Assembly (NCBI GenBank): GCA_020851955.1
Contig: JADZBU010000013.1
Location: 1 to 40,528 of the forward strand
DNA: 40,528 nt
DNA from: Chromatiaceae bacterium
GTDB taxonomy: Bacteria > Pseudomonadota > Gammaproteobacteria > Chromatiales > Chromatiaceae
Reading direction: 5' to 3'
The notes beneath the pieces are model-generated. The model saw nothing but the letters and a program-made list of their open reading frames with translations, searched no databases and was not told the DNA's origin. A program made the position numbers and the translations under genes. Positions 14,246-35,749 of this stretch are shown here, one piece after another (positions within the stretch are counted from its first letter, which is position 1; the number at the start of each line of letters is the position of its first letter).

Positions 14246-14300
14246 GGTAGTCCGCTGGGGTTACCGGCCTTACCGAACGCACCTGTGTGTGTGGGTTTCA

Positions 14301-14400
14301 GGGTCGGGTGACGGCGATTGGGGGACGCCGTGAATACTTCCCTGTAGGCTTGGCGACAGCATCCCTGCTGTCGACACCACCAATCGCCGCCACCCGACCC
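14301..14400 (+). repeat. REP-type palindromic element, copy 1
   Basis: A 100-bp element whose ends pair: GGGTCGGGTG-A-CGGCGATTGG with CCAATCGCCG-C-CACCCGACCC. The core carries GACGCCGTGAATAC, then CTGTAGG, then the hairpin CGACAGCA-TCCC-TGCTGTCG. A GTAG just before a hairpin is the hallmark of REP sequences moved by RAYT transposases. It lies between two convergent genes. Related copies are at 26719, 28928 and 35651. Confidence 0.9.
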
Positions 14401-14434
14401 TGCTGGCGTAGGCCGAAATTCACCGGCACTGGGT

Positions 14435-14460
14435 ATAACGTTGGTATCAAGGCTCAAAGC
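14435..14460 (+). repeat. 26-bp direct repeat, outer copy of the asnB 3' end
   Basis: ATAACG-N3-GTATCAAGGCTCAAAGC is repeated 63 bp further on at 14498-14523, where it forms the last codons and stop of the asnB-like gene. This copy is a short tandem duplication left outside the gene. Confidence 0.7.
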
Positions 14461-14497: not shown

Positions 14498-14523
14498 ATA
14501 ACGCCAGTATCAAGGCTCAAAGC
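14498..14523 (+). repeat. 26-bp direct repeat, copy inside the asnB 3' end
   Basis: Second copy of the 14435-14460 sequence. It contains the TGA stop (14510-14512) and last codons of the leftward asnB-like gene. Confidence 0.7.
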
Positions 14524-26718: not shown

Positions 26719-26818
26719 GGGCCGGGTGGTGTCTGGCGGGGGACGCCGTGAATACGTCCCTGTAGGCTTGGCGACAGCATCCCTGCTGTCGACACCCCCG
26801 CCAGCCCCCACCCGACCC
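26719..26818 (+). repeat. REP-type palindromic element, copy 2
   Basis: Same core as the element at 14301 (GACGCCGTGAATAC, CTGTAGG, CGACAGCA-TCCC-TGCTGTCG). The outer arms are CTGGCGGGGG and CCCCCGCCAG, with GGGCCGGGTG facing CACCCGACCC further out. It lies between convergent genes (end of the Met-rich protein and end of mrpG). The rest of the gap, 26819-26941, shows no gene or clear signal. Confidence 0.9.
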
Positions 26819-27291: not shown

Positions 27292-27561
27292 CTAATCGAT
27301 AATATCCCCGCGCAAGAGATACTTGCACAGGGCCACGGTGCTGACGAAGCCAATGAGGGCAATCAGCAAGGCGGCCTCGAAATAGAGGCCGGAACCCAAG
27401 CGGATGCCCAGCAGGATCAGGAGGGCGATGGCATTGATGGCAAGGGTGTCCAGGGCCAGGATGCGGTCCGGAGCACTGGGACCCACCAGAAGACGCCAAA
27501 AGCCGAGGGCGATCGCCACGGCCACCAGGGCAAAGGCGATGTTCAGGACGATGGCGAGCAT
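27292..27561 (-). CDS. mrpF: Mrp/Mnh Na+/H+ antiporter subunit F
   Basis: An 89-residue protein with three membrane helices. The typical MrpF centre is RLLVGPSAPDRILALDTLA, followed by LYFEAALLIALIGFVSTVAL. Its ATG lies within the 3' end of mrpE (19-bp overlap), indicating coupled translation. MrpF is a small structural subunit of the E-F-G part of the complex. Confidence 0.94.
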   Translation of the reverse strand: MLAIVLNIAFALVAVAIALGFWRLLVGPSAPDRILALDTLAINAIALLILLGIRLGSGLYFEAALLIALIGFVSTVALCKYLLRGDIID

Positions 27562-28067
27562 GGTTCGAACACCTTTTTCAGGGGGGCCTCGTAGCGCTCC
27601 TTGATTTCCTGGACCAGGGCATCCGGGTCTGGGGCATCCAGGGCATGGACCAGGAGGCTAGCGTGATCCGGACTGAGTTCCAGGGACACGGTGCCCGGCG
27701 TCAGGCTGATGGTATTGGCCAGCAGACTGATGCCGATCTCGCCCTTGAGGTCCAGGGGCACCTCGAAGAAGGCCGGCTTGAGTTGCCCCGGCTGGCCCAG
27801 GATGAGCCGGGCCACGGTCAGGTTGGCCACCAGGATGTCCCACAGGACCACCCCGACGAAGCGCAACAGGGTCAGGGGGGCGTGAAACTGGAGGGTCTCT
27901 GGCCAAAAGCGCTGGGTAAAGAGGGGGATCACCCAGCCCAACAGCAACCCGAGCAGGATATGCCCCGGCCCCAGACTGTTGTTGAGCAGCAGCCACACCA
28001 GGACGAGGACCAGGGTCAGCCGGGGCTGGGGCAGCCAGCGCGGAAACGGGGCCATCGAGATTCTCAT
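27543..28067 (-). CDS. mrpE: Mrp/Mnh Na+/H+ antiporter subunit E
   Basis: A 174-residue protein starting MRISMAPFPRWLPQPRLTLV. Two N-terminal membrane helices (LVLVLVWLLLNNSLGPGHIL and neighbours) are followed by the cytoplasmic domain. The MrpE signature is ISLLANTISLTPGTVSLEL and the end is HALDAPDPDALVQEIKERYE. The ATG at 28065-28067 has GAGAGG only three bases ahead and lies seven bases after the stop of the DsrE-like gene. mrpE is therefore probably translated from a transcript that begins with that gene, not directly after mrpD as in most mrp operons. Confidence 0.92.
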   Translation of the reverse strand: MRISMAPFPRWLPQPRLTLVLVLVWLLLNNSLGPGHILLGLLLGWVIPLFTQRFWPETLQFHAPLTLLRFVGVVLWDILVANLTVARLILGQPGQLKPAFFEVPLDLKGEIGISLLANTISLTPGTVSLELSPDHASLLVHALDAPDPDALVQEIKERYEAPLKKVFEPCSPSS

Positions 28068-28074
28068 CAACCTC

Positions 28075-28488
28075 TCAAGGCTTGATATAGGCCGCGCCGT
28101 CGTGCTGAAGTTTGGCAAGCCGCACCACGCCGGAGGGGGTGTACACCACCTCGCCCATGAACTGCTCCGGCTTGAGATTACGGTTTTTGAGAGTGATCTG
28201 GCATACCTCAAAGGTCACGCCCCGTTGGACGAGCGGCTTGATAAGGTCTGTGTAGGGATTGCCCTTGGGATCCTTGGCATCGGTCATGAGGAAATCCACG
28301 CCATTGGCATGTGATACCACGGAGATCTTGGCGAGGGGATCAACATCCAGATGGTTTTGGACATTGCGCAAGGCCTTGGGCGCCACCGTCGCATCATCGA
28401 TGTGATAAACGACGAGGTCCTCCGCCAGGACTACCGCGGACATCAAGACCAGGGTCAGTCCCAATAAAAGGTTGCGGATTTTCAGCAT
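28075..28488 (-). CDS. Periplasmic DsrE/DsrF-like sulfur-relay-family protein
   Basis: A 137-residue protein with a signal peptide (MLKIRNLLLGLTLVLMSAVV, cleavage near VLA-ED). The small alpha/beta DsrE-like domain shows VVYHIDDATVAPKALRNVQN, ISVVSHANGVDFLM, the conserved cysteine Cys96 in VTFEVCQITLKNRNL, and GEVVYTPSGVVRLAKLQHDG. Exported single-cysteine DsrE-like proteins are frequent in sulfur oxidisers; the cytoplasmic DsrE carries persulfide sulfur, but the role of the exported form is not established. ATG 28486-28488 is preceded by AGAGGAA. Placed between mrpD and mrpE, it is seven bases from mrpE. Confidence 0.82.
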   Translation of the reverse strand: MLKIRNLLLGLTLVLMSAVVLAEDLVVYHIDDATVAPKALRNVQNHLDVDPLAKISVVSHANGVDFLMTDAKDPKGNPYTDLIKPLVQRGVTFEVCQITLKNRNLKPEQFMGEVVYTPSGVVRLAKLQHDGAAYIKP

Positions 28489-28596
28489 GGTGTTTCCTCT
28501 CTGGGGGTTAGGGTCATCTTGGTTGGTGTAATCGGCACTCATCGGAATGCCGCTTCTTATTATTCATACTCAGCGCGGACAGGTTTTCGGCTTCTT

Positions 28597-28927: not shown

Positions 28928-29041
28928 GGGCCGGGTGGTGGCGGGTGGCGGGCGGGGGTGTCGACAGCAGGGATGCTGTCGCCAAGCCTACAGGGATGTA
29001 TTCACGGCGTCCCCCGACCACCATCCGCCGCCACCCGGCCC
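28928..29041 (-). repeat. REP-type palindromic element, copy 3 (inside the mrp region)
   Basis: 114-bp copy in the opposite orientation. The core is as in the other copies; the outer arms are about 31 bp long with four mismatches, beginning GGGCCGGGTGG on both strands. It lies about 157 bp downstream of the mrpD stop and 440 bp upstream of the DsrE-like gene. The 709-bp gap 28489-29197 contains this element and the nested repeats at 28597, but no convincing gene. Confidence 0.9.
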
Positions 29042-29197: not shown

Positions 29198-30692
<1,495 letters not shown>

Positions 30693-30700
<8 letters not shown>

Positions 30701-31025
30701 GGCCCGCCTCCCCATCCACCTGGTCGGTCCCCAGTTCCGCCCGGGTCTTGAGCGCCAGCAGGATGACAAAGGCCGTCATGGCGAAGCCGATGACGATGGC
30801 CGTGAGCACCAGGGCCTGGGGCAAGGGGTCGGCGTACCCGGAGGGGCCGAGGCCAATCACCGGCGGCCGGCCGACCACCAGCCGCCCGGAGGCAAAGAGA
30901 AAGAGATTGACGGCGTAGGAGAGGAGCGTGAGCCCCAGCACCACCGAGAAGGTCTGGGCCCGCAGCAGTAAATAGACGCCACAGCTGGTCAGCACGCCAA
31001 CCAGGAGGGAGATGATGGCCTCCAT
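30693..31025 (-). CDS. mrpC: Mrp/Mnh Na+/H+ antiporter subunit C
   Basis: A 110-residue NuoK-like protein with three membrane helices. It contains GVYLLLRAQTFSVVLGLTLL, SYAVNLFLFASGRL, then PLPQALVLTAIVIGFAMTAF, the conserved D-P-L-P-Q-A-L-V-L-T-A-I-V-I motif. It begins one base after the mrpA/B stop and ends inside the start of mrpD, so all three are read from one message. Confidence 0.95.
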
Positions 31026-35650: not shown

Positions 35651-35749
35651 GGGCTGGGTGGGGGCTGGCGGGGTGTCGACCGCAGTGATGCGATCGCCAG
35701 GCCTACGGGGACCTATTCACGGCGTCCCCCGCCAGAAACCACCTGGGCC
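35651..35749 (-). repeat. REP-type palindromic element, copy 4 (diverged)
   Basis: Opposite orientation to copy 1. In element orientation the core hairpin is CGATCGCA-TCAC-TGCGGTCG, in place of CGACAGCA-TCCC-TGCTGTCG. Both arms changed together so that pairing is kept, with one T-G wobble. The GTAG and the outer arms (CTGGCGGGG/CCCCGCCAG) are retained. It lies in the divergent gap between the CBS gene and nrdA, about 107 bp upstream of the DnaA box. Confidence 0.85.

Follow-up and report, generated by a model that had tools for sequence, protein, structure and literature searches.

The repeat that recurs in the 40,528-nt stretch of Chromatiaceae DNA analysed here (the window, contig 13 of a draft genome of 4.26 Mb and 88.9% completeness) is best explained as a mobile, dispersed, TwoAYGGAY-like repeat that displays predicted paired binding sites for CsrA, a reading to which we assign a probability of about 0.58. 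The repeat is present in tens to hundreds of copies per genome, its stems covary, one of its two strands carries the better fold, its loops share a consensus, and at one clear site it has inserted at a TA. Binding of CsrA is the most likely function that we can predict for it.

Copies in the window and in other genomes

The original prediction placed four elements in the window, and all four were found: element 1 at 14300-14401, element 2 at 26719-26818, element 3 at 28928-29041 (reversed) and element 4 at 35651-35749 (reversed). Their 13-base core, GACGCCGTGAATA, occurs exactly four times in the window, and allowing up to two mismatches gave five matches against 0.54 expected. Following the earlier reading, we call the strand carrying GACGCCGTGAATA the top strand and the other the complement. 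The self-complementary arms claimed for these elements were borne out over ~24, 24, 31 and 24 positions in elements 1 to 4, respectively, with few mismatches. A covariance model (R1), built from 44 non-redundant sequences of which none came from the window's genus, recovered all four.

Element 2, whose folded strand is the minus strand, was matched by R1 at 26729-26808 (minus, 86.6 bits, E = 1.9e-17). The arms of its outer stem (26719-26742 and 26795-26818) enclose two hairpins, each with a CsrA-like loop on the minus strand: the first at 26778-26785 (CAGGGATG, in a 7-bp hairpin, from the sequence and the folds) and the second at 26755-26762 (CAGGGACG, from the sequence and the R1 alignment). 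Element 1 (minus; R1 match 14311-14390, 85.6 bits, E = 3.2e-17) folds in the same way, with loops at 14337-14344 and 14360-14367 and arms CGGCGATTGG/CCAATCGCCG. So does element 3 on the plus strand (R1 match 28945-29024, 86.8 bits, E = 1.7e-17), with loops at 28968-28975 and 28991-28998. As DNA, elements 1 to 3 fold far better than their shuffled sequences (z = -8.8, -6.6 and -7.2). Element 4 (plus; R1 match 35665-35735, 46.2 bits, E = 2.5e-8) folds weakly (z = -2.6), and both of its GGA loops are damaged (CAGTGATG at 35683-35690 and CGGGGACC at 35706-35713); it is a decayed copy.

Two features of the surroundings were also observed. The sequence GTATCAAGGCTCAAAGC is present twice just outside element 1 (14444-14460 and 14507-14523), beside an asparagine synthetase gene. 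In the window genome, two Mrp antiporter genes on the minus strand, mnhD (29201-30769) and mnhE (27546-28211), lie ~1.1 kb apart, with element 3 and a DsrE-family gene (28078-28542) between them; the gap is ~10 bp in the related genome G002 and is also much shorter in G001 and G003.

The genome holds more copies than the four first noted: 66 by R1 and 44 by exact pattern, with none for the reversed-pattern control. Three other species of the genus had 54, 113 (G002) and 57 copies by R1, and 60 were present in G030, a closed chromosome from the family. R1 found 84 copies in G312 and 48 in G355; in G287 it found at least 150, and the pattern count there was 433. Related Gammaproteobacteria carry from about 50 to more than 400 copies per genome. 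The pattern was present in 45 of 369 genomes of the class, and its reversed control in none. Across the phylum, R1 matched 19 of 299 genomes under strict filters (15 candidates scored per genome), all of them in the window's class. The carriers named among the matches listed were Stenotrophomonas, Xanthomonas, Marinobacter, Microbulbifer, Rheinheimera, Shewanella, Idiomarina, Methylomonas, Ectothiorhodospira and Yersinia proxima.

Copies varied in several ways. In G008, one core copy (L225) has perfect arms of ~60 bp and another (L227) has wholly different arms. Several subfamilies with different arms and a common core were seen in G287 (L428-L447), and in many of them a second repeat, with GGA-loop hairpins of its own (CGCCAAGGATGGCG, TTTTGCAGGAGCAAAA), has been inserted into hairpin 2. 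In G030 (L206-L222), hairpin 2 is longer (ATCCCTGATCCGATCAAGGG) or has a five-base loop, which takes the GGA loop off the consensus.

The repeat is mobile in G287. Within 400 kb of that genome, five units of exactly 162 nt have the ends TATACCC..GGGTATA. One of these interrupts a repeat of the heptamer CTGCTAA; removing it while leaving one TA in the flanks gives back a perfect repeat, in keeping with insertion at TA and its duplication. The terminal inverted repeats and target duplication that define a MITE are thus both present in G287. The ends are mostly eroded in the window genome, where the left-end pattern together with TGGG on the right was found at 4 of the 44 loci searched. Correia/NEMIS-type MITEs are short, TA-flanked palindromic elements with TATA ends, similar in this respect to the repeat but different in sequence, and we know of none that carries its core. 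The orthologous places in G001-G003 that could be read hold neither elements 1-3 nor their arms. Insertion of the core into palindromes that already existed in the host is not supported, the intergenic DNA being too diverged to show an empty palindrome.

Covariation and the strand that folds

Within the window's own genome, arms paired better with their own partners (mean score 19.55) than with the arms of other copies (14.85), a difference reached in 0 of 10000 permutations. This test used 38 copies after removal of identical contexts, 3 of the 41 having been dropped because they were cut by contig ends. At one copy (L038, end of G000:C340), a perfect inverted repeat extends from the copy until the contig stops, which may be a fold-back assembly artefact.

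Covariation was also measured in a gap-free alignment (A1) of 44 non-redundant copies from other genera, taken from the 48 with a 26-nt hairpin-2 segment. The source copies had been picked by an arm-pairing score of at least 8, which excluded 23 of 271 and left 248 arm-fitted copies. In A1, 94.5% of cells were paired, compared with 61.9% after shuffling, a percentage that is biased upward for the outer stem because the copies were chosen for arm pairing. The first hairpin, which is free of this choice, was 94.2% paired. The covariation score was 0.822, compared with 0.196 ± 0.013 in shuffled alignments and 0.117-0.150 when the partners were slid. Two-sided changes occurred in 24 of the 27 pairs, among them every pair of the outer stem (14) and of the first hairpin (7).

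In orthologous copies from different species, the process could be seen directly. Eight pairs, most of which rest on one flank only, were compared after two of ten had been skipped as cut by contig ends. At 216 paired positions there were 24 two-sided changes that kept the pairing, 9 one-sided changes and no two-sided change that lost it, and 18 of 240 unpaired sites had changed. The arms of L175 and L198 differ by a single paired swap next to a flank that is 93% identical. The original prediction took such paired changes to imply selection on, or transposition through, a folded single strand; paired changes that keep a single strand folded, and dispersal as a repeat, were both supported, and the REP/RAYT mark was not.

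The strand that folds was inspected in 77 non-redundant copies, obtained by cutting 99 by arm identity. Among their arm mismatches, A.C on the top strand, which reads G.U on the complement, outnumbered G.T by 121 to 21, and C.T and T.C outnumbered G.A and A.G by 51 to 5. Counted by copy, the sign of the asymmetry was 49 to 5. The asymmetry was also seen in the window's genus alone (84 to 9) and in G287 alone (76 to 16). RNA folding energies favored the complement strand in all four window copies. Together, the asymmetric mismatches and the energies identify the complement strand as the constrained molecule, either as RNA or as single-stranded DNA. The folding is strand-specific and falls on the complement of the strand that was first read; the asymmetry alone would also fit a folded single-stranded DNA.

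Paired GGA loops and their relatives

On the complement strand, the repeat folds into a variable outer stem enclosing two hairpins with C[ANGGAN]G loops, in which the GGA triplets are spaced 20 nt apart (A1 columns 27-29 and 50-52). The single hairpin nested in a larger palindrome that was originally described is therefore not the unit, which consists of the outer stem and both hairpins. Loop A, which is free of the search pattern, has the consensus C A N G G A N G: the GG is invariant in the 44 copies and each A is present in 43; the loop varies mainly at the N places, and the full CANGGANG is present in 39 of 44. Loop B matched in all 44 copies, partly because the search pattern fixed C.TCC.TG. 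Among copies of the window's genus, an ANGGAN hexaloop with a C-G closing pair was found in 80 of 80 first hairpins, where it is largely fixed by the pattern, and in 79 of 80 second hairpins.

These are the features of a CsrA/RsmA site, namely a GGA in a hairpin loop, an ANGGAN hexaloop and a closing C-G pair. According to excerpts of PMC7652899, the consensus selected for CsrA by SELEX is RUACARGGAUGU, with ligands that mostly had six-base loops and paired AC/GU flanks. Element 3 reads CUACAGGGAUGUA, and its UACAGGGAUGU agrees with that consensus in 11 of 12 letters. The same excerpts report that one dimer of CsrA can span two sites when these are 10-63 nt apart, with distances over 18 nt working best (PMC7652899). 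The window genome has one intact csrA, and csrA is also present in the five other genomes searched.

Transcription of the complement strand would give an RNA that shows a paired CsrA/RsmA-binding site, and one CsrA dimer could bridge both loops of a copy. The outer stem, which varies freely but stays complementary, would hold the two hairpins together. The copies may be CsrA-binding modules within transcripts, as cis sites, or may jointly form a distributed sponge, with a presumed regulatory effect in either case. They would have spread as short, TA-flanked elements, with TATACCC...GGGTATA ends in at least one genome, presumably by the action of a mobilising enzyme. In the available text of the open-licence PMC literature, we found no paper tying the repeat, by its core letters or CATCCATGG, to CsrA.

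The nearest relative in Rfam is TwoAYGGAY (RF01731, clan CL00106). Under relaxed thresholds, its model matched the complement strand of Marinobacter copies (L365; 35.2 and 33.0 bits), below the cut-off of 43. In G312, all five RF01731 matches (29-39 bits) coincided with R1 matches on the same strand. No window copy reached the gathering score of 43 bits, and the window gave no match. RF01731 exceeded its cut-off in 4 of the 30 genomes searched, the window genome not being among them. Of 16 element-bearing genomes it matched 3 and missed 13; of 14 others it matched 4. Three of these four were searched with R1, which gave no copies. Because of these three RF01731-positive genomes without an R1 match, the two sets of genomes overlap but differ. 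The sub-threshold scores of the window copies and the 13 element-bearing genomes that gave no match count against the TwoAYGGAY-based explanation. In one genome without the repeat's pattern (G042, L491-L517), the 29 RF01731 matches belong to another dispersed GGA-hairpin repeat (CCGGCCATGGATGGCCGG).

The repeat and TwoAYGGAY both have, on the same strand, an outer stem around two hairpins whose loops are of the AYGGAY type, although those of the repeat are ANGGAN and do not require the Y. The repeat differs in its shorter fixed core (AAGCC...TTCACGGCGT), its outer stem of free sequence, and its tens to hundreds of copies. The published list of 2010 places TwoAYGGAY in a gut metagenome, gamma-Proteobacteria and Clostridiales (PMC2864571). 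In 2014 it was proposed to bind CsrA on motif grounds, without a test in the consulted part of that paper (PMC4333381). What is new relative to TwoAYGGAY is the dispersal, the free arms and the fixed core.

The sponge RNAs CsrB/CsrC and RsmX/Y/Z likewise have GGA in hairpin loops and paired sites. However, they are genes with many sites each (PMC7652899, in excerpt), whereas the repeat has two sites per copy and many copies. Among sponge-RNA families, the window gave only a meaningless CsrC match of 16.6 bits.

Alternative readings and meaning

The alternative that survives best, although we consider it rather unlikely, is that the repeat is a mobile element at the DNA level only, its single-stranded or cruciform fold serving mobilisation and its GGA/TCC loops serving recognition by a transposase, with no role as RNA. 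The high copy number and the MITE-like ends with TA insertion agree with this, and a requirement for one strand of the DNA to fold would likewise produce the mismatch asymmetry. The gene context is in its favor as well. Where the copies lie between tandem genes, the folded strand is co-directional in 39 cases and opposite in 37 (14:18 in G287, 7:3 in the window's own genome and 18:16 in the named set), and this lack of orientation bias counts against the RNA reading. In total, 142 copies were classified with a home-made codon-trained gene caller (54 of 55 in G287, 29 of 33 in the own genome and 59 of 92 in the named set); 38 lie between convergent and 28 between divergent genes, the latter also counting against the RNA reading. 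Furthermore, the folded strand of element 3 is antisense to both flanking genes, and in the RNA structures of lowest predicted energy for elements 1 and 2 the second GGA is base-paired with UCCC. These observations leave some probability for a DNA-level role. Against it, the loops agree with the CsrA site at every letter, including the freedom at the N places, and the repeat is related to RF01731. The TA-flanked ends also suggest a double-strand DDE mechanism, for which a single-strand fold would be unneeded, and no Y1 enzyme lay beside copies in the loci seen.

It is improbable that the top strand is the functional one, as a Ysr224-like sRNA that would pair with Shine-Dalgarno sequences through its UCC loops. 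The Rfam family RF02770 (Ysr224, Yersinia sRNA 224) has the same core in the top orientation, was described from Yersinia and is called "temperature-responsive" in the excerpted text of PMC9029176. A Yersinia proxima copy (L294) scored 94 bits against it and was the only one of 18 loci to pass the cut-off of 70; window copies scored 31.2, 23.2 and 21.2 bits. Ysr224 and the repeat have the core sequence and the second hairpin in common, but Ysr224 is an annotated sRNA on the opposite strand with a different structure line; the strand of this annotation counts against the CsrA reading. Against a functional top strand, the G.U-type mismatches pile up on the complement strand, and it is there that the ANGGAN loop pattern has a reason. 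The same excerpts put Ysr224 in the top 20 of annotated bacterial sRNAs by prevalence (PMC9029176), a ranking that would result from many dispersed copies.

Selection might also be unnecessary for the arms to remain complementary, if quasipalindrome correction templated by a hairpin during replication, or the exchange of entire hairpins among copies, kept them so. One such exchange was seen in the orthologues L177 and L190, in which the whole hairpin-2 type has been swapped (three paired changes) between flanks that are 93-95% identical, and paired changes arising in one event would fit. However, correction would clear mismatches equally on both strands and give no excess of A.C over G.T, and the loops are conserved while the stems change; we give this explanation a low probability.

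The remaining alternative, a GTAG-type REP mobilised by a RAYT transposase, is mostly refuted and now very improbable. It was originally proposed from the GTAG that the window copies have next to a hairpin. On the top strand, this GTAG forms the 3' arm of a hairpin stem, where it is paired and covaries (columns 45-56, UA in 33 and CG in 11; columns 46-55, AU in 22 and CG in 20). It is not conserved: only 16 of the 44 non-redundant copies have it, as do 132 of the 248 arm-fitted ones, and the rest read GGGG, GGAG, GTAC and others. The Y1 transposase that had been suggested as a check was sought in the own genome, 38 genomes of the family and four element-rich genomes. None of 43 fetched Y1_Tnp loci from 34 genomes, which are part of the matches listed and were each viewed ~1.5 kb to either side, carried the core. 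The own genome had two partial Y1 matches, and G002 (100% complete, 113 copies) had one. REP dimers, or REPs within longer palindromes, are reported for H. neapolitanus, A. variabilis and T. roseum in the excerpts of Di Nocera 2013 (PMC3733652), so the nested arrangement as such is not new. GTAG REPs, some of which lie within longer palindromes, resemble the repeat in being dispersed intergenic palindromes. The repeat differs from them in its unit of at least 80 nt with two hairpins in an outer stem, and it has neither the unpaired GTAG foot of a 20-40 bp hairpin nor, in the loci examined, a link to a RAYT.

If the repeat does display paired CsrA sites, a broader picture may be drawn tentatively. 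A transposable element with a predicted paired CsrA/RsmA site may have seeded 50 to more than 400 sites per Gammaproteobacteria genome, its transposition building a distributed CsrA sponge or adding genes to the Csr regulon, and TwoAYGGAY and Ysr224 may be opposite-strand readings of one mobile family. If true, this would join repeats that are usually classed as REP-like to a global regulator, and titration of CsrA by mobile repeats would become concretely testable. Placing the widely annotated Ysr224 "sRNA" and TwoAYGGAY in one dispersed family would correct automatic annotation, and the strand-resolved covariation data set would offer a means of separating selection on RNA from selection on DNA in palindromic repeats.
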